Source: Candidatus Tectomicrobia bacterium (GTDB taxonomy: Bacteria; UBA8248). Taken from it: 64,000 nucleotides of DNA. The stretch spans positions 22,651-86,650 of the forward strand of contig JACPUR010000016.1 of the NCBI GenBank assembly GCA_016192135.1. The letters are read 5' to 3'. Shown here one piece after another: positions 11,926 through 31,245 of this stretch; position 1 is the stretch's first letter, and each line of letters starts with the position of its first letter. The notes under the pieces are model-generated. The model saw only the letters and a program-made list of their open reading frames with translations, was not told the origin of the DNA and did no database searches. Both the position numbers and the translations under genes were made by a program.

Positions 11926-12083
11926 CCTTGCCAGCATCCCGGTGGACGGGGGCTGAGATTGAGAAAACCCAGGATTTACCGAGATTCACCGCGCCGGCCC
12001 GCTCCAAGGAGGCGAGCCGCCACCGCGCGGCGGCATGAATGTCTCACAAGCCGGGGAAGGATTCAACCCCGCCCCGGAACCCG

Positions 12084-13301
12084 TCAGGTCCGATAATCCG
12101 CGTTTATCTTGACGTATTCATAGCTGAGGTCGGTGGTCCAGACGGCCCCCTCGGCCCGCCCGGCGCCCAGGTGCAGATTGACCATAAACTCCGGGCGCTT
12201 GAGGACGGGAGCGAGCGGCCCCTCCCAGCCCTCGACCGGGGCCCCATACCGGACGACCGGCACCCCCCCGATTTCGAGAGACATCCGCTCGGGCGCGATG
12301 CGCGCCCCGCTCCGTCCGGCCGCGGCGAAAATGCGGCCCCAGTTGGGCAGGCCCCCGAAGAAGGCCGTCTTGACCAGGAGGCTCTCGGCCACGGTGCGCC
12401 CCGCCCGCCTGGCGTCCGCCGGGCTCGCGGCGCCCCGGATCCGTATCTCCACCACCCGCGTCACTCCCTCCCCGTCCCGCAGGATGGCGAGGGCGAGCGC
12501 CCGGCAGACCTTGTCCAGACCCGCCCGGAAGCGCTCCAGCGCCCTTCCGCCGGCGATCCGGACGCCCGAGGCCCCGGTCGCGGCCAGGATGGCGGTGTCG
12601 TTCGTGGAGGTGTCCCCGTCCACCGTCACGCAGTTGAACGTGAGGTCCGCCGCCTTGCGGAGGGCCGGCAGGAGGACCCGGGAGGGGACGGCCGCGTCCG
12701 TCGTCAGGAAGGCCAGCATGGTCGCCATGTTGGGAGCGATCATGCCCGCGCCCTTGGTCATCCCCCCCAGGCGCACGCGCTGGCCGCCCCCAAGGTCGAT
12801 CTCGACCGCGTGCTCCTTGGGGCGCGTGTCGGTGGTCATGATCGCGGCCGCCGCCTCGCGGCCCTTGCCAGGGGCGAGGTCCCGAACAAGCCCGCCCAGC
12901 GCCCGCTCCATGAGGTCCACGGGCAGCCGCTGGCCGATGAGCCCGGTCGAGCACATCGCCACCCGGGCCTGGGGGCAGCCGAGCTCTTTCGCGAGGGCCT
13001 GGGTGATCCGGCGGGCGTCCTTGAGGCCCTGCTTGCCGGTGCAGGCGTTGGCGTTGCCGCTGTTGACCAGGATGGCCCGCAGCGGCCCCTTGCCCACCCG
13101 TTCCCGGCAGAGCACGACCGGGGCGGCGCACACCTTGTTCCGGGTGTAGACGCCGGCCGCCTGGGCCGGGGAGTCGAAGGCGAGAAGAGTCATGTCGGGC
13201 CGGCCGGATTCCTTGATGCCGGCCGTGGCGGCGGAGGCCGCGACGCCCTGGGCGGCGCAGACTCCGCCCTCGATTTCCCGCAGGAAGGATTCCGCGCTCA
13301 C
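12084..13301 (-). CDS. argJ: Bifunctional ornithine acetyltransferase / N-acetylglutamate synthase
   Basis: ArgJ recycles the acetyl group from N-acetylornithine to glutamate in arginine synthesis. The precursor cleaves itself into two chains. The cleavage motif is NMATMLAF, with the new N-terminal Thr at about residue 194, preceded by GGMTKGAGMIAP. Other signatures are VNSGNANACTG, STGLIGQRLP, NCVTVDGDTSTNDT and PNWGRIFAAAG. GTG 13301 overlaps the argC stop as GTGA, giving 405 residues, the usual length. A cyclic acetyl pathway is implied; the glutamate-synthase activity itself is inferred from the family. Confidence 0.95.
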   Translation of the reverse strand: MSAESFLREIEGGVCAAQGVAASAATAGIKESGRPDMTLLAFDSPAQAAGVYTRNKVCAAPVVLCRERVGKGPLRAILVNSGNANACTGKQGLKDARRITQALAKELGCPQARVAMCSTGLIGQRLPVDLMERALGGLVRDLAPGKGREAAAAIMTTDTRPKEHAVEIDLGGGQRVRLGGMTKGAGMIAPNMATMLAFLTTDAAVPSRVLLPALRKAADLTFNCVTVDGDTSTNDTAILAATGASGVRIAGGRALERFRAGLDKVCRALALAILRDGEGVTRVVEIRIRGAASPADARRAGRTVAESLLVKTAFFGGLPNWGRIFAAAGRSGARIAPERMSLEIGGVPVVRYGAPVEGWEGPLAPVLKRPEFMVNLHLGAGRAEGAVWTTDLSYEYVKINADYRT

Positions 13302-14335
13302 ATCCAGAACCCGGGATGGGCGAGGCCCCGCGTCTCCGGGAGCCCCAGCATGAGGTTCATGTTCTGGATGGCGGCGCCGGAGGCGCCCTTCACCAGGTTG
13401 TCGATGGCGGTCACGACGATGAACCGCCCCGTCCGCTCGTCGAGGGTGAAGCCGATGTCGAGGAAGTTGCTCCCGGCCACCTGGCTCACGTCCGGGAAGG
13501 CCCCCTCCGGCATGAGCCGCATGAAGGGCTCGCCGTCGTAGGCGTCCCGGTAGGCCTGCCGCGCCCGGGCCGCCGTCGCGCCCGGGCCCGCCTCGGCGTA
13601 GATGGTGGAGAGGATGCCCCGCGTCATGGGGACGAGGTGCGGGGTGAAGGAAACCTTCACCGCCTCCCCCGCCATCGCGGAGAGTTCCTGCTCGATCTCG
13701 GGGGTGTGCCGGTGGGTGGCGATGCCGTAGGCGCGGAAGCGCTCGTTCACCTCGGAGAACTGGAGGCTGAGCTCGGCCTTCCGCCCGGCGCCCGAGACGC
13801 CCGACTTGGAGTCCACGATGATGGAGCCCGCCCGGATGAGCCGCGCCTTGAGCAGCGGATAGAGGCCCAGGATGGCGCCCGTGGGATAGCACCCCGGGTT
13901 GGCCACGAGGGAGGCCTTGCGGATTCTCTCCCGGTACAGCTCGGGGATGCCGTAGACGGCCTGGGGGATGCGCTCGGGGCAGATGTGGGCCGTCTTGTAC
14001 CAGGCGGTGTAGACCGAGGGGTCCTGAATGCGGAAGTCCGCCGAGAAATCCACCACCTTCAGATCCTGATCCAGCAGGCCCGGCACCGAATTCATGGCGA
14101 CCCGGTGGGGAAGGCAGCAGAAGACGAGGTCCACGCCCTTGAATGTCCCGGGTGCGAATTTCTCGAAGCGCCCCCGCACCACCCCGGCGAGCGCGGGAAA
14201 GACCTCTCCCACCTCCTTGCCGGCGTAGCTTTCGGAGGTCAGCGGACCGAACTCGATTTCCCCGTGGGAGGCCAGCAGGCGGAGGAGCTCAAAGCCGGTG
14301 TAGCCCGTGGCCCCCATCACACCGACGCGGTGCAT
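13298..14335 (-). CDS. argC: N-acetyl-gamma-glutamyl-phosphate reductase
   Basis: ArgC reduces N-acetylglutamyl phosphate to the semialdehyde in arginine synthesis. The NAD(P)-binding start VGVMGATGYTGFELLRLL and the catalytic ANPGCYPTGAILGL with Cys149 are clear, as is HRHTPEIEQEL. The length of 345 residues is normal. It lies 45 bases after rpsI and is coupled to argJ by a 4-base overlap, so the arginine genes may be read through from the ribosomal promoter at 15345-15374. Confidence 0.96.
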   Translation of the reverse strand: MHRVGVMGATGYTGFELLRLLASHGEIEFGPLTSESYAGKEVGEVFPALAGVVRGRFEKFAPGTFKGVDLVFCCLPHRVAMNSVPGLLDQDLKVVDFSADFRIQDPSVYTAWYKTAHICPERIPQAVYGIPELYRERIRKASLVANPGCYPTGAILGLYPLLKARLIRAGSIIVDSKSGVSGAGRKAELSLQFSEVNERFRAYGIATHRHTPEIEQELSAMAGEAVKVSFTPHLVPMTRGILSTIYAEAGPGATAARARQAYRDAYDGEPFMRLMPEGAFPDVSQVAGSNFLDIGFTLDERTGRFIVVTAIDNLVKGASGAAIQNMNLMLGLPETRGLAHPGFWM

Positions 14336-14380
14336 GGAAACCTCCCCCCGGAGGACGGGGCGCGGTGAGCGCGCGGACTG

Positions 14381-15344: not shown

Positions 15345-15374
15345 ATTAAAGCCCCAAAAAAGGCCCGGTGTCAA
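15345..15374 (-). promoter_or_regulatory. Sigma70-type promoter for rplM-rpsI
   Basis: On the minus strand a perfect -35 box TTGACA (15374-15369) is followed after 18 bases by TTTAAT (15350-15345), five of six matches to the -10 consensus. The -10 box lies 72 bases before the rplM start. This is one of the clearest promoters in the window and suits a ribosomal protein operon. argC and argJ may also be read from it. Confidence 0.7.
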
Positions 15375-15397
15375 CTCAGGGGGAGGATTTCGCGGGG

Positions 15398-16702
15398 TTA
15401 CAGCTTGTAGAGCCGGCCGTCCGGCCGGGCGCCGGGATAGGCGTTCCGGGTGTCCACGATGCAGGGGGCGTGCTCGCGGACCAGCGCCAAGTCGATTTCC
15501 CCGTGGGCCGTGAGGATGACGGCGCAATCGATGTTCCGGAGGGAATCCGCCTCGACCGCCTGCGAAACGTGGCGCCGCCCCAGGAACTCGAGCTCCGGCA
15601 CGTGGGGGTCATGGTAGCTGATCTGGGCGCCCAGCTCGGAGAGCAGGTGCCACACGTCCAGGGCCGGGCTCTCGCGGATGTCGCTCACGCCGGCCTTGTA
15701 GGCCACCCCGACGAGGAAAATCCTGGCCCCGTTCAGGGCCTTTCCGCGGTCGTTCAACGCTTTCAGCACCAGATCCACCACGAACTGGGGCATACTGATG
15801 TTGATCTTGCTGGCCAGGCTGATGAACTGGGCCTCGAAGCCCACCTGCCGGGCCTTCCACGACAGGTAGATGGGGTCGATGGGGATGCAGTGTCCCCCCA
15901 GCCCGGGCCCGGGATAGAACGGCATGAAGCCGAAGGGCTTGGTCTTCGCCGCGTCGATGACCTCCCAGATGTCCACCCCGAGCTTGTGGCACATGCGGGC
16001 CAGCTCGTTCACCAGCCCGATGTTCACGCTCCGGTAGGTGTTCTCCAGGAGCTTCACCATCTCGGCCACGCGCGGGGAGCTTACCGTCACGACGCTCTCG
16101 ATGCAGTTGGAATAGAGCGCGGCGGCCACCTCGGAGCACCGGGCCGTCATCCCTCCCACCACCTTCGGGATGTTGCGGGTGTTGTATTGAGGGTTCCCCG
16201 GATCCACCCGCTCGGGCGAGAACGCCAGGAAGAAGTCTTCTCCGACCTGGTAGCCCGTCCGGCTCAGCACGGGCAGGAGCGCCTCCTCGGTGGTCCCCGG
16301 GTAGGTGGTGCTCTCCAGGATGTAGAGCTGGCCCCGCTGCTGGTTCGACGCGATGGACTGGACGGCGGACTGGACGTAGGAGAGGTCCGGATCGCCGGAC
16401 TTGCTAAGGGGAGTGGGCACGCAGATGTTCACCGTCTGGACCTCGGCGAGCACATCCGGGTCCGTGGTGACGTGGAAACGCCCCGTGTCCAGCGCCTCGC
16501 GCAGGTGCCCATCGGCCACGTCGGTGATGTAGGACTGCCCGTCCCGCATCCGCCGTACCCGGCCATCGTCCGCGTCCAGGCCCACCACCTGATAGCCCGC
16601 GCGAACGAACTCGAGCGCCAGCGGGAGGCCCACGTAGCCGAGTCCCATCACGCAGGAGCGGACCCGCCGGTTCTGGATGTCCTCGAGCAAGGTCGTGAAC
16701 AC
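15398..16702 (-). CDS. Nucleotide sugar dehydrogenase (UDP-GlcNAc/UDP-Glc 6-dehydrogenase family)
   Basis: This enzyme oxidises C6 of an NDP-sugar twice, giving a uronic acid for surface polysaccharide. Rossmann motif VMGLGYVGLPLALEF lies at about residues 18-32. TYPGTTEE and FSPERVDPGN follow, and the catalytic Cys272 sits in GPGLGGHCIPIDPIYL. The absence of the UDP-Glc dehydrogenase subgroup's longer insert and the GGHCIPIDP form favour the WbpA/TviB (UDP-HexNAc) group. I start it at GTG 16702, giving 434 residues; a TTG at 16777 would add 25 residues without homology. It lies next to the polysaccharide locus and probably supplies it. Confidence 0.9.
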   Translation of the reverse strand: MFTTLLEDIQNRRVRSCVMGLGYVGLPLALEFVRAGYQVVGLDADDGRVRRMRDGQSYITDVADGHLREALDTGRFHVTTDPDVLAEVQTVNICVPTPLSKSGDPDLSYVQSAVQSIASNQQRGQLYILESTTYPGTTEEALLPVLSRTGYQVGEDFFLAFSPERVDPGNPQYNTRNIPKVVGGMTARCSEVAAALYSNCIESVVTVSSPRVAEMVKLLENTYRSVNIGLVNELARMCHKLGVDIWEVIDAAKTKPFGFMPFYPGPGLGGHCIPIDPIYLSWKARQVGFEAQFISLASKINISMPQFVVDLVLKALNDRGKALNGARIFLVGVAYKAGVSDIRESPALDVWHLLSELGAQISYHDPHVPELEFLGRRHVSQAVEADSLRNIDCAVILTAHGEIDLALVREHAPCIVDTRNAYPGARPDGRLYKL

Positions 16703-16791
16703 TGAGAGGCTTCCCCCCTTCTCTCGTTCTCCGTGGAAAAACCACAGCTTTTTATATTCGCCCCGAAACGCTGTCAATGATATCGGGTGTT

Positions 16792-17380: not shown

Positions 17381-17410
17381 TTGATTATTGACCTAATATT
17401 ATTGTAAAAT
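17381..17410 (+). promoter_or_regulatory. Candidate sigma70 promoter of the polysaccharide locus
   Basis: TTGATT (17381-17386) and TAAAAT (17405-17410) are 18 bases apart, in the only strongly AT-rich patch of this region, 65 bases before the 17475 start. Each box departs from consensus by one or two bases. TTGACC at 17388 is an alternative -35 with poor -10 spacing. The choice is by pattern only. Confidence 0.45.
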
Positions 17411-17474
17411 CATAGCTTGGTCCGGAGCCCTTTGGCGTGGAATTGTTTGTCTCTTTCGTGAGGCGAAGCCGGGG

Positions 17475-19766
17475 ATGCGCAAGTGGGCGCTGGGGATCAT
17501 GGCGGCGTGCCTGGCCGCCGGGATGGCCGGGACGGATTTCCGTCTGGCCGCGAGAGCCGCCTTCGGGGCTCCGGGGCCCGCCGCGGACGCCCTCCAGCCC
17601 AAGGGGCCGGTCGGGAAAGGCTACTTCCGCGGGCTCGTCGCGGCCGACCTGGACGGCGACGGCAAGCGCGAGCTCATCTCCAGCGACTTGGCCTCGGGCC
17701 AGGTATTGATCTGGCGGCCCCGCCCGGACCCCGGGTGGACCGAGCCCATCGCATTGGGGACTGGCGCGGAGGTGCGTTCCATCGCGGTCGCCGACCTGGA
17801 CGGGGATTCTCTGCCGGAGATCATCGTCGCCCTCCGCGGCCAGGAAAAAGACGGGATCGAGATTTGGAAGAACATGGGGGGCCTCCGCTTCCAGCGGACG
17901 GCCGGCCCCGGCCAGGGCGAGGTGTTCTCGGACGTGGCCGTGGCCGATTTCAACTACGACGGGAGGCCGGACATCATCGCCTCCAAGGAGGAGGCGGGCG
18001 CCCAGGGCGGCCTCCGGGTCTGGCTGAACCTCGGCACCGACAAATGGCAGGAGGCGGCCGCCCCTCCGGCCGAAGGGCCCTTCCACAGCCTCGCCGTGGT
18101 GGACCTGAACCAGGACGGGATTCTCGACGTCGCCGCCGCCGGCACCGGCCCCTCGGGCGGCCTCCGGGCGTGGCTGGGCCGCGACAAGCACCTGAATTGG
18201 GGGAGGCCCAACCAGCTCTCGCAGGGGGACTTCTGGGGCGTCACCGTCGCCGACCTGAACGGGGACGGCCTGCCCGACCTCCTCGCCGCCGGCAGGAACA
18301 CGGGCATCCAGGTCTGGCAGGGCCTGGGAAAGGGCACGTTCAATCAGATGGCCAGCCCCACCCCGGAGGGCAGCTTCTTCCGCGTGGTGCCCGTCGACCG
18401 GGATTCGGACGGCCGCGCCGATCTGGTGGCCAGCACGATGGACGGCAAGGGCTTGCGCTATTGGCGGCAGGACCAGGCGCTGGGCTGGGTGGCCCATCGC
18501 CTCCTCGCCGAGTCGGGGATATTCCACCACCTGCTGGTGGCGGACCTCGACGGCGACGGCCGGCTCGATTTGGGCGCCGCGACCCACGGCGAGGGCGTCG
18601 CCGTCTGGCCCGGTTTCGGAAAGCCCCTGCCCGGCCAGGTCCCGGGCGAGAAAACCGCCAAACACGATCTCCCGCTCCCGCCGGGCGCCCGCATGCCCGA
18701 CCTGCGGACGGGCCGCCCCGCCCCTCCCCGCCAGCCCAAACAGCCGGCGCGGATCGAGGGGGCCTTCCCGGAGAAGCGGGTCCCGGGCGAGTACCTCATC
18801 GGCTCCGGCGACGTGCTGACCGTCAGCGTGTGGCGGGGGGTCATCTCCCAGAAAGAGCAGGTCCAGGTGAGCGAGCGGGGCGTGGTCAGCATCGGCCTCA
18901 TCGATGACGTCCAGGCGGCGGGCCTGACCGTGAAGGAGGTGACCGACCTCCTCAAGGAGAAGCTGAGGAAGTTCATCAAGAACCCGCGGGTGGACGTGGT
19001 GGTGTCGAGATTCGGGAGCAAGATCGTGCGGGTGATGGGCGCGGTGGCGCGGCCCCAGACCTATAACGTGTCCGCGACGGTCACCCTGCTGGACGCCATC
19101 CTCCTCGCCGGCGGCCACCTGCCCACGACGCCCGAGCGTCCCGGCGGCGACCTCACCCACGTCTCCCTCCGGCGAGGAGGAAGGACGCGGACCGTGAACA
19201 TCCTCCGCTACATCTCGGGAACCACGGGCGAGACCGACAACCCCGAGCTCCTGGACGGCGACCTGGTCTTCGTCCCGGAATCCAGCTCGGAGCTGGTCGA
19301 GCAGAAGCGCGTGTACGTATTCGGCGAGATCCGGTCGCCGGGCGTGCACCCCCTGACGTTCAACATGCGGGTGCTCGACGCCATCGCCAGGGCGGGAGGC
19401 TTCAACGAGTTCGCCCAGCAGGACGAGGTCCGCATCATCCGCGGCGACGCGGAGCGGCCCGAGGTCATCCACGCCGACATCAAGGCCATGCTCCGCCGCG
19501 GCGATCGCCGCGGGGATCACCTCCTGAAGCCGAACGACGTGGTGTTCGCCCCCCGGACCATCATCGGCGACCTCAACGAGTTCGCCCGCCACATGTCGCC
19601 GATTCTCGACTTCCTGTTCTACCCCTCCCGGTTCCGCGAGTCCTACTCGATCAACTCGAACCTCCTGAAGTTCGACCTGGGCGGCCCGAGCCGCACCACC
19701 GCGGAGCGGGGAGGCGAAGGCACATTCACCCCGGGCACGCGCACCGTCACCCTCATAGGGCAGTAG
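17475..19766 (+). CDS. FG-GAP propeller fused to Wza-type polysaccharide export protein
   Basis: A 763-residue exported protein with an unusual fusion. After a signal peptide (residues 1-30) come seven FG-GAP/VCBS repeats with calcium-loop motifs such as ADLDGDGKRELI. The loops start near residues 58, 107, 158, 210, 260, 308 and 357, a regular step of about 50, which predicts a seven-bladed beta-propeller. A Pro-rich linker (385-437) leads to a Poly_export domain (YLIGSGDVLTVSVW, 440-515) and two SLBB domains (about 516-610 and 627-710). The C-terminal half is a normal Wza/GumB-like outer membrane export protein, but I see no lipobox. The propeller may bind polysaccharide or protein at the cell surface or in the periplasm. 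It is followed after 6 bases by the Wzc-like gene. Confidence 0.9.
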   Translation: MRKWALGIMAACLAAGMAGTDFRLAARAAFGAPGPAADALQPKGPVGKGYFRGLVAADLDGDGKRELISSDLASGQVLIWRPRPDPGWTEPIALGTGAEVRSIAVADLDGDSLPEIIVALRGQEKDGIEIWKNMGGLRFQRTAGPGQGEVFSDVAVADFNYDGRPDIIASKEEAGAQGGLRVWLNLGTDKWQEAAAPPAEGPFHSLAVVDLNQDGILDVAAAGTGPSGGLRAWLGRDKHLNWGRPNQLSQGDFWGVTVADLNGDGLPDLLAAGRNTGIQVWQGLGKGTFNQMASPTPEGSFFRVVPVDRDSDGRADLVASTMDGKGLRYWRQDQALGWVAHRLLAESGIFHHLLVADLDGDGRLDLGAATHGEGVAVWPGFGKPLPGQVPGEKTAKHDLPLPPGARMPDLRTGRPAPPRQPKQPARIEGAFPEKRVPGEYLIGSGDVLTVSVWRGVISQKEQVQVSERGVVSIGLIDDVQAAGLTVKEVTDLLKEKLRKFIKNPRVDVVVSRFGSKIVRVMGAVARPQTYNVSATVTLLDAILLAGGHLPTTPERPGGDLTHVSLRRGGRTRTVNILRYISGTTGETDNPELLDGDLVFVPESSSELVEQKRVYVFGEIRSPGVHPLTFNMRVLDAIARAGGFNEFAQQDEVRIIRGDAERPEVIHADIKAMLRRGDRRGDHLLKPNDVVFAPRTIIGDLNEFARHMSPILDFLFYPSRFRESYSINSNLLKFDLGGPSRTTAERGGEGTFTPGTRTVTLIGQ

Positions 19767-19772
19767 CCGAAA

Positions 19773-22700
19773 ATGGGCCAGTATGACATCAACTTGCGCG
19801 ACTATTGGCGGATCATCCGCAAGCGCAAGCTCATCATCATCTTCACCGTCGTCATCCTGGGTTTCTTCAGCTTCGTCTTCGCGAAGCTGAACGAGCCGCC
19901 CCCCATCTACTCGGCTTCCAGCGCCGTCCGGCTCGAGCCGAACACGGCCCTCTCCGGCCTGGTGAGCGACCCCGGAGCCCTCGGCACGACCGCGGAGATC
20001 ACCACCCAGACCGCCGTCATCCGCAGCTACCCGGTCATGGAGCAGGTGGCCAAGGAGATGGGGATGGTGGACAAGTCCCTCTCCTCGGAGGATATCGCCA
20101 AGAACAGCCGGCTGGTTTCCATCATCAACGGCCTCGCGGGCCAAGTGAACACCGGCCAGGTGGGCGACACCAACATCATCTCCATCACGGTCATCTCGGG
20201 GGATCCCGACCAGGCGGCGCGGATGGCCAATACCACCGCGTCCGTTTTCCGGCAGTTCGACTACGAGAACCGGAACCAGACGGTCCTGCGCCAGCACGAC
20301 TTCATCAAGACCCAGCTCACCCAGAGCGAGGCCCGCCTCAAGGAGGCCGAGCGCATCATCAAGGAGTTCAAGGAGTCCAAGAACTTCCTTTCCATCGCCG
20401 TGGAGGCCGCCTCCATCGGGCGGCTGATGGAGCGCCTCCAGGAAGTCGTCGCGCAGCAGCAAGGGATGCTCAAGCGCGTCCGCGAGGCCATCGAGCAGGT
20501 CCGCAACATCCGTGACGTCCGGGCCGGCAGGACCGAGCGCGTGCCCGTGGACGACATCGATCCCGGCCTGGCCCGCCTCAACCAGCAGCTCGTGGAGCTC
20601 CAGGTCCAGCGCGACAACCTGCTCCAGGAGTTCACCCCGGAGCATCCCGCGGTCAACGACATCATCCAGCAGATCAACAACGTCGTCCGGCAGATGCTGC
20701 TCATCCTGCAGGGCCGGGAGCAGACCCTGGCGGCGCTCGCGAAGGCCCGCGAGGACGAACTCAACCAGATCGAGTCGCGCAACAAGGAGATCCCAGACCT
20801 CTCCCTCCAGCTCCAGCGGCACGAGCGCCAGCTCGCCACCAACCAGGAAGTCCACAACCTCCTGCGCCAGAAGTTCGAGGAGGTCAGCATCCGGCTCGCG
20901 GGCACCCAGCACCTCGTTCGCATCGTGAAGCCCGCCTTCCGGCCGCTGTGGCGCGACAACCCGCCGCAGATCTTCCTGAACACCTTCGTGGGCGCGCTCC
21001 TGGGCCTGGTGGTGGGCCTGGCGTTCGCCCTGGTGCTCGAGACGATGGATACCTCCATCGGCACCATCGAGGACGTGGAGTCCTATCTCGAAGTGCCCGT
21101 CCTGGGAGTCATCCCCATCCTCGACAACGAGGAACTCGAGCGCCAGTACATCGAGAGCAACCCGGAACGGGCGGGCCGCTTCACGCCCGACATCTACGGC
21201 CGGCTCGTCACGCACTTCGTCCCGCGCTCGCCCATCGCCGAGGCCTACCGCTCCTTCCGCACGCAGATGGAGTTCGTCTCCGTCGAGAAGGGCGGCAACA
21301 CCTTCGTCATCACGAGCAGCACGCCGGGCGAGGGCAAGACGACCACCTCCATCAACTTCGCCATCACCTGCGCCCAGTCCAACAAGCGCACCCTGCTCAT
21401 CGACGCCGACATGCGGAAGCCCGTCATCTACCGCATCTTCGGCATCGACCGGGAGCCCGGCCTCACCGATATCCTCCTGGGCAACAACACCTGGACGGAC
21501 TGCGTCCGCACCATGACCGACATCATGCTCGGCAAGTTCGACATGGAAGACATCATGCTGACGCCGGGCCTCGACAACCTGAACCTCCTGACCTGCGGGC
21601 ACATCCCGCCGAACCCGGCCGAGCTCCTGAACTCCACGCGCATGACTCAGTTCCTCGAGGAGATCCGGCAGGAGTTCGACGTGATCGTGATCGACACGCC
21701 GCCCCTCCTGCCGGTCACGGACGCGGCCATCCTCGGCACGCGCGTGGACGGCTGCGTGCTGGTCTACCGGGTGGGGGCCATCGCGCGGGGGGCGCTCAAG
21801 CGGGCGAAGATGCAGCTCGACAACGTGCACGCGAAGGTGTGGGGCGTGGTCCTTAACTCGATGCGCCCCGAGGCCACCTCCGACATCGACTCCATCCGCT
21901 ACCAGTCGACCTACTACTACGGCGGCTATACGGAAGAGCACGCCGAGGAAAACCTGGCCGAGCTGCCCTTCTATCAGCGCTGGTACCGCTCCGCGGTCGA
22001 GCTCGTCGCCCCCGCCGAGCGGGACGACGTGACCGAGGAAGCATCCTCCCTGGCCAAGACGCTCGCCGGCGTGGCCCTGGTCCTCTCCTTCTCCCTCATC
22101 GCTGCCAGCGCGGCCTGGCAGATGGGCGTGCGGCTCCCGTTCGTCGGCTCCCTCGCGGCGCGGGATCAGATGGTCGGCATGCCGCCGAAGGACTCGCTGG
22201 CGCCGCTGGGCGCGATCTGGAAGAGCACCCAGGAGGCGCCCGTGACCCCCGCGTCCGCCCCCGCCAGCCCCGCGGCCCCCGAGGGGAGCAAGGACGCGCC
22301 CCAGGCCCCCGCGAAGCCTCCCGCGCCCGCCCAGGGCGGGTCGCCCCCGCCGCAAGCTCCCGCCCGTCCCGGGCCGGGCGCCTCCCTCCTCCCGGGGCGG
22401 CGCTTCGCCTCGGCGCCCCCGGCCGCGCCCCGGGAAGACCTGACGGAGGCCGCCGCCGTCCGGCGGGCCGTCATGCGCCTCGCGGGCCAGACGCTCCCCG
22501 GCGGGCTCCTCCGCGAGGAGGAGAGCCGGAAGCCCTTCAGCGTCGTATTCAGCCACAACCGCCGCCGCGAGACGACGCGGCACCACCTGTCGATCCTGCG
22601 CCAGGCGGGGCTCGCCCCCTCCTTCGCCCCCGTCCGGGGGATCGAGGGCTCCGCCGACCGCGTCTTTCTCGGCGCCTTCGCCTCCGAGCGGGAGGCCAAG

Positions 22701-22982
22701 GCCTTCATCGAGAAGCGGCTCAGGCCCCTCCTCCAGCCGGGCGAGGAACCCTACGCGGACCGCCTGCCCTACACGCTCGAGGTGGGCCGCGATCTCGCGC
22801 CGGGCGAGGCCGACGTGATGCGCGTCATCCTGAAGGCGGCCGACCTCTACCCCGCCTTCGAGGAAACCTCGAGCGGCAAGGGCCGGCTGCTGGTCGGCGC
22901 CTTCCGGTCGCCGTCCGAGGCCGAGCACGCCGCCATCCTCCTCCAGCGGGAGAAGATCCCCTTCCAGCTCGTCACCCGCTAG
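19773..22982 (+). CDS. Wzc-like polysaccharide co-polymerase / tyrosine kinase with added SPOR-like domain
   Basis: A 1069-residue inner membrane protein. Residues 1-425 form a Wzz/GNVR unit (membrane helices about 20-38 and 400-422, with a long periplasmic coiled coil between). Residues 480-700 are a BY-kinase: Walker A SSTPGEGKTTT, Walker A' TLLIDADMRKP, Walker B VIVIDTPPLLP. A Tyr cluster follows at once (YQSTYYYGGY, about 710-719), which is normally the C-terminus. Here the chain goes on: a third helix (764-783), a Pro/Ala linker to about 890, and a C-terminal domain with two halves (FLGAFASEREAKAFI, LLVGAFRSPSEAEHAAILL) resembling SPOR peptidoglycan-binding repeats. It controls chain length and export together with the 17475 product. 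Confidence 0.92.
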   Translation: MGQYDINLRDYWRIIRKRKLIIIFTVVILGFFSFVFAKLNEPPPIYSASSAVRLEPNTALSGLVSDPGALGTTAEITTQTAVIRSYPVMEQVAKEMGMVDKSLSSEDIAKNSRLVSIINGLAGQVNTGQVGDTNIISITVISGDPDQAARMANTTASVFRQFDYENRNQTVLRQHDFIKTQLTQSEARLKEAERIIKEFKESKNFLSIAVEAASIGRLMERLQEVVAQQQGMLKRVREAIEQVRNIRDVRAGRTERVPVDDIDPGLARLNQQLVELQVQRDNLLQEFTPEHPAVNDIIQQINNVVRQMLLILQGREQTLAALAKAREDELNQIESRNKEIPDLSLQLQRHERQLATNQEVHNLLRQKFEEVSIRLAGTQHLVRIVKPAFRPLWRDNPPQIFLNTFVGALLGLVVGLAFALVLETMDTSIGTIEDVESYLEVPVLGVIPILDNEELERQYIESNPERAGRFTPDIYGRLVTHFVPRSPIAEAYRSFRTQMEFVSVEKGGNTFVITSSTPGEGKTTTSINFAITCAQSNKRTLLIDADMRKPVIYRIFGIDREPGLTDILLGNNTWTDCVRTMTDIMLGKFDMEDIMLTPGLDNLNLLTCGHIPPNPAELLNSTRMTQFLEEIRQEFDVIVIDTPPLLPVTDAAILGTRVDGCVLVYRVGAIARGALKRAKMQLDNVHAKVWGVVLNSMRPEATSDIDSIRYQSTYYYGGYTEEHAEENLAELPFYQRWYRSAVELVAPAERDDVTEEASSLAKTLAGVALVLSFSLIAASAAWQMGVRLPFVGSLAARDQMVGMPPKDSLAPLGAIWKSTQEAPVTPASAPASPAAPEGSKDAPQAPAKPPAPAQGGSPPPQAPARPGPGASLLPGRRFASAPPAAPREDLTEAAAVRRAVMRLAGQTLPGGLLREEESRKPFSVVFSHNRRRETTRHHLSILRQAGLAPSFAPVRGIEGSADRVFLGAFASEREAKAFIEKRLRPLLQPGEEPYADRLPYTLEVGRDLAPGEADVMRVILKAADLYPAFEETSSGKGRLLVGAFRSPSEAEHAAILLQREKIPFQLVTR

Positions 22983-23002
22983 CTCGACAGGACCGCCGCC
23001 GC

Positions 23003-24598
23003 ATGGAGCCGAAGCCGGAGCCCCACCGTCCATCCGGATCCGCCGCGGCGCTCTTCGTCGCCCTCGCCACGGCCCTTTTCCTGCTGGGCGTGTCGCTGAA
23101 GCTCCAAACCCCCTTGACTTACTGGGACTCGGCGCTGCTGGAATGGGCGCGGAGCCCTTCGCCCTCGCCCGCTCCGGCGGGAACGTCTCCCTTCTTCCTC
23201 ATCCTCCTCAAGGCGCTGGCCTCGGCCGGATGGCTCGAATCCGGTTTGCTGCGGTGGATCCAGGCGGGCGGATCCGTTCTGTCCGCGGCGGCGGCTTTTC
23301 TGCTCGCGCGCCGCCTCTGGGGGAGCCCCCGGGCCGGCGTCCTCGCCTATTGCCTTTACCTCCTCCACCCGGCCGTGGTGCAGGGAGCCCATAGCCTGGA
23401 CATGGCCGACGCCTCCTACTACCCCGCCTTCGCCTCGTTCTGGCTCCTCGCCTTTCTCGCCCCCGGCCCGGATGGGTGGCGGCGGGGCTTCCGTCTCGCG
23501 GCCTGGAGCGCGCTGGCCATGGGCTGGAAAATCACCTCGTCCCTGGGCCTCCTCCTCTTCGCCTTCCCCGCCGCCTGGCGCCGGAAGGGCGGGTGGCGGG
23601 ACTTCCTCGCCACCGGCGCCGGGCTCGCCCTCTTCGCGCTCCTCTGGTGGTCCCTGCAGAGCTGGGAGCGAGCCGGGGACTCGGCGGGAACCGCGGCGGA
23701 GTCCATCCTGGCGGGGCGGACGCCCGCGGCGGCCGCCTTTCACCTGATGCTGGGGATGGCCTGGCTGGGGCCTTTCCTCGCCCTGCTGGCGGCCGGGGGG
23801 GCCCTCGCCCTGCGGGCGCGGGGGGCGCCGCGCATGGGCCCGCTCCTCTGGGGGACCGTCCTCTATCTCGGGGGGTACTGGGCCGCGGGGGGCATGAACT
23901 ACGGCTTCCCGCGCTACTACGTGGCCCTCCTGCCCCTCCTGTGCGCCTTCGCGGCGAACCCGGAATGGATCCCGCGCCCGGGCGCCCTCTCCCTGGCCCT
24001 CCTGCTCCTCCCGGCCCTGGCGCTCGCCCTCTGGATGCCCGACCCCCTCCTGGCCCTGAACGCCGGGCTGCGGGAGGCCTACGCGGCCGGGGGGGCCGCA
24101 CCCGCCCTGGCGGAGCTGATCCTCCCCTGGGCGGCCGGGATCGGGCTGGCGGCGGGGGCCGCCTGGGCATTTCGTATCCCCTGGGCGAACCTTCTGGTAT
24201 TATTGGCCTTGGCCAACGCCTTGGGACTCGGAGCGGCGCAGGGGCGCGCCCCCTACGCCACCTCGTACGGCTACGGCGAGCGGGGGCGCGCGGAGGCGCT
24301 CGGGTGGCTGGCGGAGAACGTGCCCCCCGGGCGGGCCGTCCTGGCTCCGCCCAACCTGGAGCCCGGGCTCCGCGAGCGGGGCCTGCGGGGCGCGGGCCAC
24401 GGGGCATGGAGGTCGCGCGAGGCCGTCCTCGCGTTTCTCCGCCGGGAACGGCCGGCGGCGGTGGTTCTGGGCTCGACGGAGAATTCGGTATGGCAGCTTC
24501 GATGGCTCCTGCTCGAGCCGCCGATCGAGTTGGAGGCCTGCCGGGAGCGCTTCCGGCGGATCGGAACCTACCGGCTCTGCCGGCTTCCTCCCGGATGA
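23003..24598 (+). CDS. Polytopic GT-C type glycosyltransferase (GT39-like)
   Basis: The 531-residue product has about ten hydrophobic helices. The first long outside loop carries an acidic motif (TYWDSALLEWA) in the place where GT39/GT83-type enzymes hold their catalytic Asp. A C-terminal soluble part follows (about 420-531). Such enzymes use polyprenyl-phosphate sugars on the outer face of the inner membrane. It lies between the Wzc-like and O-antigen-ligase-like genes and is probably co-transcribed (20 and 37 base gaps). The sugar and acceptor are unknown; a purely structural membrane protein cannot be excluded. Confidence 0.65.
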   Translation: MEPKPEPHRPSGSAAALFVALATALFLLGVSLKLQTPLTYWDSALLEWARSPSPSPAPAGTSPFFLILLKALASAGWLESGLLRWIQAGGSVLSAAAAFLLARRLWGSPRAGVLAYCLYLLHPAVVQGAHSLDMADASYYPAFASFWLLAFLAPGPDGWRRGFRLAAWSALAMGWKITSSLGLLLFAFPAAWRRKGGWRDFLATGAGLALFALLWWSLQSWERAGDSAGTAAESILAGRTPAAAAFHLMLGMAWLGPFLALLAAGGALALRARGAPRMGPLLWGTVLYLGGYWAAGGMNYGFPRYYVALLPLLCAFAANPEWIPRPGALSLALLLLPALALALWMPDPLLALNAGLREAYAAGGAAPALAELILPWAAGIGLAAGAAWAFRIPWANLLVLLALANALGLGAAQGRAPYATSYGYGERGRAEALGWLAENVPPGRAVLAPPNLEPGLRERGLRGAGHGAWRSREAVLAFLRRERPAAVVLGSTENSVWQLRWLLLEPPIELEACRERFRRIGTYRLCRLPPG

Positions 24599-24635: not shown

Positions 24636-26402
24636 ATGGCCCGAACCTCGCGCGCGATCGGCGGAGGCGGCTTGGCGGGCAGGGGCAGCCTGCTCCCCGT
24701 GGTGGCCGTGCTCGGCTTCCTCATCCTCAGCCTGGGCCTGTCCTACTCCCTCACGCAGACCTCGGCCTTCGTCGTCCTGGGGGGCTTCGTCGGCGCCATC
24801 ATCCTCGGCGCGAGCTTCATGAGCCCGATGTTCGGCGTCGCGCTGCTGATCATGTCCATGCTCCTCTCGCCCGAGTTCGGGGCCGGGGGCGGAGGCGGGG
24901 GCGGCACCGACGCCGGGCGCTCGGTCGTGGTGCGGATGGACGACGTCCTCCTCGCCATTCTCTCCATCGCCTGGTTCGCCCGCACCGCCGTCCACAAGGA
25001 GCTGGGCTTCATCCTCAAGAACCCCCTCAACCGCCCCATCGGCTTCTACATCCTGAGCTGCATCATCTCCACCATCCTGGGCTTCATGACGGGCGGGGTG
25101 CGGGGGCTGATCGGGACCTTCTTCGTGATCCGCTACTTCGAGTATTTCGTCGTCTTCTTCCTCGCCCTCAACTTCATGACCGACCTCAAGGTGATGAAGC
25201 GCTTCATGAAGCTGGCCTTCTTCACCTCCATCTGCATCGCCCTCTACGGGATGGTGCAGATCCCGCTCGGGGTGCGCGTGTCGGCTCCCTTCGAGGGGGA
25301 CTCGGGCGAGCCCAACACCATGGGCGGCTACCTCCTCCTGATGATGTGCATGGCGGGGGGCCAGCTCCTCTTCGCCCGGGGCCTGCGGGCCATCCTGGGC
25401 TGGGGCTCGCTGATCGCCCTCTTCTTCATCCCGCTGCTGTTCACCGGGAGCCGCGCCTCGTGGCTGGGCATCCCGGCCGTGATCGCGGCCTTCTTCATCT
25501 TCTCCCACAAGAAGAAGCAGATTGCGCTTTTCACCGTCGCCTTCGCCTTCTTGTCGATCGTCGTGCTTCCACAGTCGGTCAAGGAGCGCGTCCTCTTCAC
25601 CTTCCAGCAGAAGAAGCAGCTCCACGCCAAGCAGATCCAGGTGGGCGCGGTCCGCCTGGACAGCTCCACCAGCGCCCGGCTGGAGAGCTACGCCGAGTCG
25701 GTCGGCGGCTGGATGAAGAAGCCCATCCTGGGCTGGGGGGTGACCGGCTACATCTTCGTGGACTCGCAGCCCATCCGGACGCTGGTGGAGACGGGGCTGG
25801 TGGGGATGGTGGCCTTCCTTTGGCTTGTGTGGGTCTATTTCCAGGCGGGACGGAAAGCGATGCGGACCTCGACGGACGCCTTCCAGCGGGGGATCGCCGT
25901 CGGCTACATGGCCGGCCTGTTCGGCCTCCTCACCCACAGCAGCGGCTCCAACACCTTCATCATCCTGCGCATCATGGAGCCGTGGATGCTCTTCACCGCC
26001 ATGGTGGTGCGCATCCCCACCCTGGCCAAGGAGCGCCAGAAGCAGTGGGAGGAGCTGGAGCGCGAGGAGGGAAAGCTCATCGAGGCGCCGCCCGAGCCCC
26101 AGCCCGAGCCGGCGGAAGGCGAGGAGGCCCCCGGCGAGAAGCGCTTCGAGAAGAAACTCTCCGAGTACGAGGAATTCCTCGAGCGCGAGCGTGTAGAGAT
26201 GGCGCGGCGGGAGGTCGAGGCCAGGCGCCGGGAGGCCGCCAAGCCCAAGTTCCGGAAGGAGTTGCTAGCCGCGGCCCGGGCGGGCGGGCCGCCCGCCGCC
26301 CCCGGGCCGGAGCCGGCGGCGGGCTCGTTCCCCAAGGCGCCCCGGAACGTCGACCTGATCCGAGAGCCCGCGTCCGGCCCCTTCGGCAGGCGCCCCCGCT
26401 AA
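24636..26402 (+). CDS. O-antigen ligase/polymerase-like membrane protein with charged C-terminal tail
   Basis: The 588-residue product has about 11 membrane helices and a Wzy_C/WaaL-type large periplasmic loop: FTGSRASWLGIP and, further on, WMKKPILGWGVTGY, typical of O-antigen ligases and polymerases. These enzymes join polyprenyl-linked glycans. After the last helix comes an unusual cytoplasmic tail of about 130 residues. It is highly charged and probably coiled-coil (about 460-545), then disordered with Pro/Ala. A Gly-rich stretch near residue 85 lies in a short loop. It is fourth in the export operon. Confidence 0.8.
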   Translation: MARTSRAIGGGGLAGRGSLLPVVAVLGFLILSLGLSYSLTQTSAFVVLGGFVGAIILGASFMSPMFGVALLIMSMLLSPEFGAGGGGGGGTDAGRSVVVRMDDVLLAILSIAWFARTAVHKELGFILKNPLNRPIGFYILSCIISTILGFMTGGVRGLIGTFFVIRYFEYFVVFFLALNFMTDLKVMKRFMKLAFFTSICIALYGMVQIPLGVRVSAPFEGDSGEPNTMGGYLLLMMCMAGGQLLFARGLRAILGWGSLIALFFIPLLFTGSRASWLGIPAVIAAFFIFSHKKKQIALFTVAFAFLSIVVLPQSVKERVLFTFQQKKQLHAKQIQVGAVRLDSSTSARLESYAESVGGWMKKPILGWGVTGYIFVDSQPIRTLVETGLVGMVAFLWLVWVYFQAGRKAMRTSTDAFQRGIAVGYMAGLFGLLTHSSGSNTFIILRIMEPWMLFTAMVVRIPTLAKERQKQWEELEREEGKLIEAPPEPQPEPAEGEEAPGEKRFEKKLSEYEEFLERERVEMARREVEARRREAAKPKFRKELLAAARAGGPPAAPGPEPAAGSFPKAPRNVDLIREPASGPFGRRPR

Positions 26403-26428: not shown

Positions 26429-27649
26429 CTACCGCTGCCGCAGGAGCGCCCTCCCCGCCAAAATCCAGAACACGAGCGGCCCGAAGAACTTCGAGGAGCG
26501 GATCAGCTCCGGCCAGAAACCCGGCCCTTTCCAAAGTGAGTGGGGGTAGTGCTCCACCCCGATCAGCAGAAGGGCGGCGAGAAAGAGCCCCGCCTGGAGG
26601 CGCCCCTCGCGCACCGCCGGATCCGTCATGGTGAGCAGCAGGGGAGCGGCGAGCCAAGCCAAGTGGTGCTCCTCGCTCAGGGGCGAGAGCATCCAGACGG
26701 AGAGGAGCAGGAAACCCGTCTCGAGCCAGGGCGCCTCCCGGCGCTTCCGCCCCGCCCAGAGAACCCAGAATGTGACCAGGGCGATGGCCGCCGTCAGAAC
26801 GGCATTCAGGGTTGCGGCGAAGAGAGGCTCCGTCCAGGGCTGCACGGCCCGCGCCAGGAGCCCGCTCAGCGCGTAGTTCACGGAGTCCGGGTTCAGCCCC
26901 CCGCCCAGGTGGTCCCGGAGAAACCCCAGGTAGCCCGTCACCGATCCGGGGCCGAAGGCGGCGGCGGTGACACCCAGCCAGACCAGGCCGAAGATCGCCG
27001 TGGCCCACAGCCCCCGGCGCATCCGGCCCATCCAGGCGAGGAACACGATCACGGCCCCGAGCTGGATCTTCATCCATCCCATGAGCAGGGCGAGAACCCC
27101 CGCCCAGGCGCCCCGTCCCCGCGCCAGCGCCAGCCCCATCCCCGCGGCGGCCAGCCCGAGGAGGAGGTCCATCTGCCCCAGCGTCGTGGCCTGCTTCGCC
27201 GGGTAGAACACGGCGAGGAAGGCCGCCGCCCCCAGGGCGCTCTCCAGGCGGGGCAGGCCCCGCCGCGTCATCTCGCGCCAGGCGATCCAGCCGATCCCGG
27301 CCAGGGCCGCCTGGGAGAGAAGCGTCCAGAGCGCCTTCGCCGCCGCCCAGGGCAGGAGGGCGGCCGGCAGGAACAGGAAATAGAACGTGGGCGGGTTCAG
27401 CCCCCGGAGGGCCCTCAGGCCCAGCCGCCGGGCGTATTCTTCGAGCGCCGCGGCATCGGCGGGATTCGCCCCCTCCCAGAGCATCCGCGCATGGACGTAG
27501 TAGGTGCTCAAGTCCACCGGGTCGGTCAGAACGACCGTCCGCAACACCAGGACGATGTGCCTCCCAACCAGGAGCAAGACCAGGACCAGGAAGAGCGGGC
27601 GCAGCGGGTATTCGAGCCCGCCGGAGCGGCCTTTTTCGGGGGCGTTCAT
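26429..27649 (-). CDS. GT87-like (DUF2029) membrane mannosyltransferase family protein
   Basis: The 406-residue product has about ten membrane segments and the DUF2029 opening VDLSTYYVHARMLWEGANPAD, where the Asp is the proposed catalytic residue of this GT-C family. NPPTFYFLFLPAALLPW, GQMDLLLGLAAAG and SEEHHLAW are further family-like stretches. Characterised relatives transfer mannose from polyprenyl-phosphomannose. ATG 27649 overlaps the previous gene's stop as ATGA, so it is coupled to the ChbG-like deacetylase. It belongs to a four-gene minus-strand group inside the polysaccharide locus. Confidence 0.75.
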   Translation of the reverse strand: MNAPEKGRSGGLEYPLRPLFLVLVLLLVGRHIVLVLRTVVLTDPVDLSTYYVHARMLWEGANPADAAALEEYARRLGLRALRGLNPPTFYFLFLPAALLPWAAAKALWTLLSQAALAGIGWIAWREMTRRGLPRLESALGAAAFLAVFYPAKQATTLGQMDLLLGLAAAGMGLALARGRGAWAGVLALLMGWMKIQLGAVIVFLAWMGRMRRGLWATAIFGLVWLGVTAAAFGPGSVTGYLGFLRDHLGGGLNPDSVNYALSGLLARAVQPWTEPLFAATLNAVLTAAIALVTFWVLWAGRKRREAPWLETGFLLLSVWMLSPLSEEHHLAWLAAPLLLTMTDPAVREGRLQAGLFLAALLLIGVEHYPHSLWKGPGFWPELIRSSKFFGPLVFWILAGRALLRQR

Positions 27650-28503
27650 CCCGCCCGCACCTCCCCGGCCAGCTCCCGGAAGCCGATGAGCCTCAGCCGC
27701 GGGCTGGCGAGGGCCGCCCGGATTTCGTCGCAGCGTAGGGCGCGCATCTCCTCCTCCCGCCGGGCCTGATAGGAATCGAACGATGGGACGGCATAGCCCG
27801 GGTGGAGGGCGATCTCCGTCACGCCCGGCCCCGCGCTCTCCAGCGCCGCCTGGAGCGCCCGAATGAAGTCGCGGCCCCGGGTGAGGCCCGTGGCATAGAA
27901 GGCGTCGGGGCGGCGCAGCCCGGCCGCCGCGATGCGCCCGGGAGCCTCCCGGGCGAGAGTGCGCAGCAGGAGCGCCTTCCAGGAGGGGACGCTCCCGGGA
28001 AGAAGGTCCTCGCGCGGGTTGCGGAGGGCGGGGATCTGGAATTCCCGCGCCAGCCGGATGAGCACCTCCAGTAGCGCCGGGAAGCCGTGCAGGTGATGGT
28101 GGACGTCGAGGTGCCACACCCGGCCCGCCCCCGCCCCCAGCACCCGCTCGATCTGCGCCCGGGCCTCCCGCTCCAGGGCCTCCATGAGCGCGCGCCCCCC
28201 CGCCGCCAGCCGGAGGGCGGCGGCGGCCAGGCCCGGGAAGCGGCTCCCGCGCCCGGCGAGGGCCCGGGCGTCCGCGCCCTTCAGGAGGGGCTCGCCCAGC
28301 GTGAAGTTCAGATGCACCCCCAGGCTGCCCGGCAGGCCGCCGCGCAGCCTCGCGCAGGCGTCCTCGAAGCCCGGCAGGTTCGCCATGAGCGAGAAGCTCG
28401 TGACGGCGCCCGCCCCGGCGCACTCGGCGATGCCCCGGTTGGTCTCGGGCGCCATGCCGAGATCGTCCGCGTTCAGGATGATTCGGGCCGGTCCCGCTTC
28501 CAC
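27646..28503 (-). CDS. ChbG/HpnK-type carbohydrate deacetylase (YdjC family)
   Basis: Family members remove N-acetyl groups from sugars with a metal bound by Asp and His. The motifs are in order: IILNADDLGM (metal Asp), LGVHLNFTLGEPL, HLDVHHHLHGFP (metal His residues), TEIALHPGY and RREEEMRAL. I chose GTG 28503, giving 285 residues. It overlaps the upstream glycosyltransferase by about 31 bases, a tight coupling. With a GT2 and a GT87-like enzyme next to it, it probably deacetylates a lipid-linked or glycan sugar, as HpnK does for hopanoids. Confidence 0.85.
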   Translation of the reverse strand: MEAGPARIILNADDLGMAPETNRGIAECAGAGAVTSFSLMANLPGFEDACARLRGGLPGSLGVHLNFTLGEPLLKGADARALAGRGSRFPGLAAAALRLAAGGRALMEALEREARAQIERVLGAGAGRVWHLDVHHHLHGFPALLEVLIRLAREFQIPALRNPREDLLPGSVPSWKALLLRTLAREAPGRIAAAGLRRPDAFYATGLTRGRDFIRALQAALESAGPGVTEIALHPGYAVPSFDSYQARREEEMRALRCDEIRAALASPRLRLIGFRELAGEVRAG

Positions 28504-30114: not shown

Positions 30115-31245
30115 ATGCACACGATTCTCTACTGCCACCATTACACCCGGATCAGCGGCGGGGAAACCAGCCTCCTCGAATTGTTCCGCCGCCTGGACCG
30201 CGGCCGCTTCCGCCCCCTCCTGGCGGCGCCGCCTGAGGGGCCCTTCCCGGACGCGGCGCGGGAACTGGGGGTCGAGGTCATCCCGGCCCAGTACGGCCCC
30301 CTCCGCCGCCTGGACCTCCTGGCCCGCGCCGCCCGCCGCCTATGGGGGGTGGCCCGCGCCCGCGCCGTCTCGCTCCTCCACGCGAACGGCCCCCTCACCA
30401 ACATCCCCGCCGCGCTGGCCGGCCGCCTCGCGGGGCGCCCCGTCGTCTGGCACGCCCGCAACCTCATCGTCCCGGGGGAGGAGATCGACCTCGACCGCCT
30501 CCTCCTGCCCCTCGCCTCCCTCCTCATCGCCAACTCGGACGCCATCCGGGAGCGCTTCCGCTTCCGGGGCGGGCTCTCCCCGAAGACGATGACCATCATC
30601 AACGGCGTGGACGTGGAGCGCTTCCACCCCTCCGTCTCGGGCGAGGAGGTGCGCGCCCGCTACGGCGCGGGGCCGGGGGATCTGCTCGCCGGGGTGGTGG
30701 GACGGATCTCCCCCATCAAGGGCCAGCGCACCTTCATCGAGGCGGCGGAGCGGCTCGTCCCGCGCTTCCCGAACCTGCGCTTCCTCATCGTGGGGGCGGG
30801 GCTCTTCGAGGGCGAGAAGAAGTGTGAAGAGGAGCTCCGGGCGCTCGTCGCCGCGCGCAACCTGGGCGGCCGCGTCTTCTTCTCGGGCTACCAGCGCGAT
30901 GTGCGGGCCCACACCGCCGCCCTCGACATCTGCGTCATCCCCTCGGACGCCGAGCCCTGCGGCCGCGTCATCTTCGAGGCCATGGCCATGGCCAAGCCGG
31001 TCGTGGGCACCGCGGCGGGCGGCACGCCCGAGATCGCCGCCGAGGGCGAGACGGGCCTCCTCGTCCCGCCGCGCGACCCGGAGGCCCTCGCCGCCGCCAT
31101 CGCCCGCCTCGCGGGAGAGCCCGGTCTCAGGCGGCGCATGGGCGAGGCCGGCCGGCGGCGGGTGGCCGAGCGGTTCACCATCCAGGCCCACGTCGGCCGG
31201 ACCGAGGAAGCCTACCTCCGCCTCCTGGGGGAGCCCCGTGGCTAG
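30115..31245 (+). CDS. Family 4 glycosyltransferase
   Basis: A GT-B retaining transferase of 376 residues. The N-terminal domain starts TILYCHHYTRISGGETSLLEL. The C-terminal domain has VVGRISPIKGQRTFIEAAE for the nucleotide site and EPCGRVIFEAMAMAKPVVGT, the E-x7-E motif. No membrane helix. It probably adds a sugar from an NDP donor to a lipid-linked chain at the cytoplasmic face. It overlaps the next gene by 8 bases. Confidence 0.9.
   Translation: MHTILYCHHYTRISGGETSLLELFRRLDRGRFRPLLAAPPEGPFPDAARELGVEVIPAQYGPLRRLDLLARAARRLWGVARARAVSLLHANGPLTNIPAALAGRLAGRPVVWHARNLIVPGEEIDLDRLLLPLASLLIANSDAIRERFRFRGGLSPKTMTIINGVDVERFHPSVSGEEVRARYGAGPGDLLAGVVGRISPIKGQRTFIEAAERLVPRFPNLRFLIVGAGLFEGEKKCEEELRALVAARNLGGRVFFSGYQRDVRAHTAALDICVIPSDAEPCGRVIFEAMAMAKPVVGTAAGGTPEIAAEGETGLLVPPRDPEALAAAIARLAGEPGLRRRMGEAGRRRVAERFTIQAHVGRTEEAYLRLLGEPRG

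Follow-up and report, generated by a model that had tools for sequence, protein, structure and literature searches.

The published classes of OPX (outer-membrane polysaccharide export) proteins, which are built on four domain models only, differ in median length: class 1 (Wza-type) has 378 aa, class 3 has 256 aa, and classes 2A and 2B, which contain GfcC, have 605 and 824 aa (PMC9603273). A lipoprotein signal is usual in class 1 (about 78%) but not strictly defining (PMC9603273). In the Wza-Wzc complex the polymer travels inside a continuous closed channel (PMC12881504). Wza of E. coli, whose gene has a Wzc-type kinase beside it, consists of a Poly_export domain and two SLBB domains, with no propeller. 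A propeller is tied to an exopolysaccharide system in Bap1 and RbmC of V. cholerae (PMC10102183); it has eight blades there, and the protein is a secreted matrix adhesin, not an exporter. Two published OPX surveys make no mention of propellers, and among open-licence papers we found none that brings FG-GAP together with Wza, or with both polysaccharide export and SLBB.

The window, by which we mean the whole stretch of 64,000 nucleotides analysed, encodes a protein in which a propeller precedes the exporter domains:

17475..19766, plus strand: propeller-exporter fusion protein, 763 aa, open reading frame with ATG start (Pfam, AlphaFold2)
17475..17558, plus strand: signal peptide, residues about 1-28 (sequence and alignment)
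17592..18623, plus strand: seven-bladed FG-GAP beta-propeller, residues 40-383 (Pfam, AlphaFold2, VIA-align)
18627..18779, plus strand: Pro-rich flexible linker, residues 385-435 (pLDDT about 30 for 385-424)
18780..19004, plus strand: Poly_export (PES, D1) domain, residues 436-510 (Pfam)
19023..19286, plus strand: first SLBB domain, about residues 517-604, bounds approximate (Pfam, AlphaFold2)
19305..19547, plus strand: second SLBB domain, residues 611-691 (Pfam)
19548..19763, plus strand: C-terminal segment, residues 692-763, candidate outer-membrane helix (Pfam, AlphaFold2)

The domain order of the exporter half is that of E. coli Wza, which it matches in sequence at 7e-13. Poly_export (PF02563) was found at 2.8e-18 (66.3 bits versus a cut-off of 28), followed by two SLBB stretches (SLBB_2 2.5e-21, SLBB 7.3e-19), and the Wza structures 2j58 and 9r64 (Wza-Wzc complex) are the best Foldseek matches of this half. 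We read the fusion as the OPX protein, of Wza type, that serves an exopolysaccharide locus associated with Wzc and Wzy. Apart from the propeller, it differs from Wza in that its C-terminal segment gave no match in a search with Pfam Wza_C (PF18412); this segment is kept among homologues, and AlphaFold2 predicts in it, at low confidence, a short helix at 700-714. The initial annotation had put usual exporters at about 360-400 residues with no propeller; long exporters exist but carry other extra domains (PMC9603273). The best NCBIfam match of the exporter half is the XrtA/PEP-CTERM export protein (TIGR03027), at 135 bits versus a curated cut-off of 180. Membership in an exosortase/PEP-CTERM system was rejected on this score and on the lack of an exosortase (PF09721) match in the window's genome. 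An antisense ORF of 1882 residues (17385-23033, minus strand) spans the exporter and the kinase that follows it; it is most likely spurious because GC3 is about 0.9 and the Pfam domains lie on the opposite strand.

A second difference from Wza lies at the N-terminus. Four homologues, spread over three other genera of the window's family (g2, g3, g6), have a lipobox, as do homologues in the other families, and there it would place the N-terminus at the inner leaflet of the outer membrane by usual sorting. The window's protein and two congeners are without the lipobox Cys; the window's protein reads ..GMAGTDF.. at the homologues' site, and its cleavage by SPase I between ..AARA and AFG is possible. 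On this alignment, the simplest reading is that the lipobox was lost in the window's genus by a change to an ordinary signal peptide, and we did not use its absence to exclude the protein from OPX at large.

The N-terminal part scores well above the Pfam cut-off (FG-GAP_3 3.9e-46, 155.9 bits versus 26.9; FG-GAP 3.5e-22) and contains seven D-x-[DN]-x-D-[GS] loops:

17646..17663, plus strand: loop 1, DLDGDG, residue 58 (motif scan)
17793..17810, plus strand: loop 2, DLDGDS, residue 107 (motif scan)
17946..17963, plus strand: loop 3, DFNYDG, residue 158 (motif scan)
18102..18119, plus strand: loop 4, DLNQDG, residue 210 (motif scan)
18252..18269, plus strand: loop 5, DLNGDG, residue 260 (motif scan)
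18396..18413, plus strand: loop 6, DRDSDG, residue 308 (motif scan)
18543..18560, plus strand: loop 7, DLDGDG, residue 357 (motif scan)

The loops are spaced at 49, 51, 52, 50, 48 and 49 residues, and compared with the seven observed, 20,000 shuffles of the fusion protein gave a mean of 0.07 loops and a maximum of 2. Judged by their motif, the loops likely bind calcium; the calcium sensing proposed in the initial annotation is a conjecture. AlphaFold2 modelled seven blades whose strands fall within residues 49-378, with propeller blocks at pLDDT about 82-96, so the complete seven-repeat propeller predicted from the loops alone is borne out. VIA-align placed it with seven-bladed propellers (LGI1, CRTAC1, integrin alpha) at Z about 29-33, a list filled by propellers and thus little test of the exporter half, which Foldseek covered. 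Foldseek matched the propeller to CRTAC1, LGI1 and integrin alpha, and also to rhamnogalacturonan lyases and the PHL lectin. These matches reflect a shared fold and say nothing on function; CRTAC1 and integrin alpha share the fold and the calcium-loop motif, have no exporter domain, and their function is not transferable.

Structure prediction of the full chain, as the initial annotation had proposed, yielded a confident propeller, a floppy tether of ~40 residues and a Wza-like half. The exporter blocks are mostly at pLDDT 77-93 and the linker (385-424) at about 30. The model was built from a 28-row alignment, an earlier run with 7 sequences having given a poor exporter half. With a pTM of 0.51 and a floppy linker, it leaves the position of the propeller relative to the ring unfixed.

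The genes around the fusion are those of a polysaccharide locus:

15398..16777, minus strand: nucleotide-sugar dehydrogenase, divergent to the exporter (TIGR03026, 432 bits; conserved)
19773..22982, plus strand: Wzc-type chain-length/tyrosine-kinase protein, 1069 aa (Wzz, GNVR and AAA_31 matches; TIGR01007 over cut-off)
23003..24598, plus strand: probable polytopic membrane protein between kinase and ligase (hydrophobic by eye; no Pfam match)
24636..26402, plus strand: Wzy_C / O-antigen-ligase family protein (Pfam)

The dehydrogenase is kept in 6/6 related loci (68-83%), and its nearest equivalogs are UDP-ManNAc dehydrogenases, with scores below their cut-offs. Since this gene is conserved, the polymer probably contains a uronic acid. 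Further along the locus are two GT4 glycosyltransferases, an asparagine-synthase-type amidotransferase and a WecA-like initiating transferase; no flippase was identified among the genes scanned. The amidotransferase (30824-32908, plus strand) is distantly like the XrtA/PEP-CTERM one, and a GT87-family glycosyltransferase lies on the opposite strand inside the locus (26429-28423, minus strand). Plus-strand ORFs at 15368-16705, 12039-13541 and 13316-14368 were dropped as genes, the Pfam domains and conservation being on minus-strand frames.

The window's kinase is unusually long: it has an extra (third) hydrophobic segment at 758-786 and also a Pro-rich stretch, and its C-terminus is SPOR-like. 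The SPOR matches of such kinases are weak: against a Pfam cut-off of 21, L002 scores 27.7 bits (3.6e-6), the window's kinase 22.1 (2e-4) and L036 18.6 (0.0024), and no SPOR match was found in the shorter kinases tested from related loci. The f88 and f174 kinases possess a hydrophobic segment at the C-terminus but no SPOR; in those of f165 and f72 both are absent.

In the window's Tectomicrobia-like family, we found five other species, from independent assemblies, that encode the fusion in a single frame; in one of the five the contig ends within the second SLBB domain. A sixth species has the gene cut inside the propeller by a contig end. Identity to the family members is 51-85% over the propeller, 52-98% over the exporter domains and 27-84% over the linker, so that the propeller is conserved about as strongly as the exporter. 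In a phylum sample of 18 genomes from six genera, four of the genera carry the fusion. A propeller ahead of Poly_export and SLBB in one open frame, as first noticed in the window, is therefore conserved in relatives, and the single chain is an inherited variant architecture of a known exporter family. In a plasmid comparison 152 records match the fusion, none of which covers over 80% of the query.

A search for the same domain order elsewhere, also suggested by the initial annotation, found it to be rare and to recur in four other lineages; the search also brought up OmpA-containing relatives, which had not been foreseen, nor had the probable origin in common with fusions of other lineages or the lipobox loss in the window's genus. 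With a family profile over 389 relatives, we found the same order in single frames in G214 (764 residues), G104 (862), G316 (876) and G158 (853), and contig-split copies in G343 and G199. Further fusions occur in the family of G104 (G399, G400 and G401, with G402 split), and 6/8 genomes of the phylum of G104 have one. Running a second profile against 385 genomes brought up no further lineage with the fusion. For the set that was sampled, all these counts are minimum values, and they make no statement on the rest of GTDB. The fusion is present in four lineages besides the window's family, all of them poorly studied. A Wzc gene directly follows the fusion gene in 4/5 lineages (f1, f88, f165 and f174), and none adjoins the G158 fusion within the stretch read.

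The lineages differ in what lies between propeller and exporter. An OmpA domain (PF00691) occupies this position in f88, f165 and f142 (2.4e-9 to 9e-11), whereas the window's family and G214 have a plain linker with no OmpA. The exporter of f72 (G088) has OmpA (1.2e-12) without a propeller. The Asp of the GH-x-D motif is not always kept (L061 has GHAQ and L072 GHAS), so peptidoglycan binding by these domains is likely in some relatives and unsure in others.

In a quick exporter tree, all fused exporters fall within one 20-row clade (SH-aLRT 99), to which the OPX proteins of f72, f88, f165 and f142 belong. The clade also includes the two OmpA-group exporters, two copies that lack their N-terminal part because the contig ends there (L068 and L075), and a plain exporter (G023) on a long branch. 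In a quick propeller tree, whose branches are long, one branch (SH-aLRT 85) has all the fused propellers to the same side. A single origin of the fusions is compatible with both trees and is favoured, short of proof. In the exporter tree, plain exporters of the same family (L043, L044 and L045, in G008, G010 and G007) belong to another clade. Stand-alone propellers also occur: a 417-aa FG-GAP protein elsewhere in the window's genome (L039:3623-4873, G000:C3) has its propeller outside the fused group in the tree, and G077 (L088) encodes a 395-aa propeller with no exporter beside it.

Since it comes before the periplasmic Poly_export domain in the chain and sits on a tether, the propeller is expected in the periplasm outside the channel. 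The exporter half would form a ring that meets its Wzc partner, and each subunit would hold one propeller on a tether of ~40-50 residues, beside the ring and near the outer membrane, so that the propellers together would make a collar outside the channel. Beta-propellers bind many kinds of things. Our best-supported guess, to which we give a probability of roughly 0.45, is that this collar serves to dock the exporter in the envelope through contacts with peptidoglycan, another glycan, or a periplasmic or outer-membrane protein, while calcium in the loops would stabilise the fold. Envelope docking is favoured because relatives carry OmpA, or propeller plus OmpA, at the same position. In the sister lineages, the OmpA domain next to the propeller would contribute binding to peptidoglycan, and in the window's family the SPOR-like C-terminus of the kinase may substitute for the absent OmpA.

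Another possibility, one we hold doubtful, is that the propeller binds glycans: it would recognise the exported polysaccharide, or a precursor, in the periplasm and help to select, retain or gate it. The initial annotation had also raised recognition of the exported glycan. The Bap1/RbmC propeller directly binds its own organism's exopolysaccharide (PMC10102183), rhamnogalacturonan lyases and the PHL lectin are among the propeller's Foldseek matches, and the probable uronic acid in the polymer could bind with calcium. But with the polymer in a closed Wza-Wzc channel (PMC12881504) and the propeller tethered outside the ring, recognition of a passing polymer is weakened. In the cross-lineage sequence alignment, moreover, the invariant propeller residues are mostly loop and core positions of the fold, with no obvious conserved binding patch.

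Docking could also be part of a wider history, which we regard as rather improbable: an old, separate exporter clade with built-in envelope-binding modules (propeller, OmpA or both) would moor the translocon to the cell wall, and the window's family would have moved the mooring from the exporter's OmpA to a SPOR-like domain on the third membrane span of the kinase.

It is quite unlikely that the propeller is mainly structural, its calcium-filled loops stiffening an N-terminal platform that aids ring assembly or contact with Wzc. The seven conserved acidic loops and the Wzc gene adjoining in 4/5 lineages would fit such a part, but usual Wza proteins assemble without a propeller, and f72 has the same exporter type with OmpA and no propeller. 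Some lipoproteins are exposed at the cell surface, and a propeller displayed there might anchor the exporter or capsule to another surface structure, as had been suggested; however, no membrane span separates the propeller from the periplasmic Poly_export domain that follows it, its expected periplasmic place outside the channel counts against display, and the window's own protein is without a lipobox, making this very unlikely. An assembly or sequencing error that fused two genes near 18640-18790, for which we found no supporting point, is excluded for practical purposes by the unbroken frame, a linker that can be aligned elsewhere, and a domain order shared with five more species and with four other lineages.

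The propeller-OPX protein is a new domain-architecture variant of an exporter family that is itself already known. Confined in the sampled genomes to little-studied lineages, the fusion is a variant and no change of principle. Surveys restricted to Poly_export, SLBB, Wza_C and GfcC overlook N-terminal modules, and an exporter clade with fused propeller and cell-wall-type domains offers a handle on how the Wza-Wzc channel is held across the cell wall. A further extended exporter, of 814 aa, is encoded in G106 (L065:3762-6203), where a Pfam scan found TPR repeats and AMIN ahead of Poly_export and SLBB; G451 has a frame of similar length, the Pfam scan covering the G106 protein.
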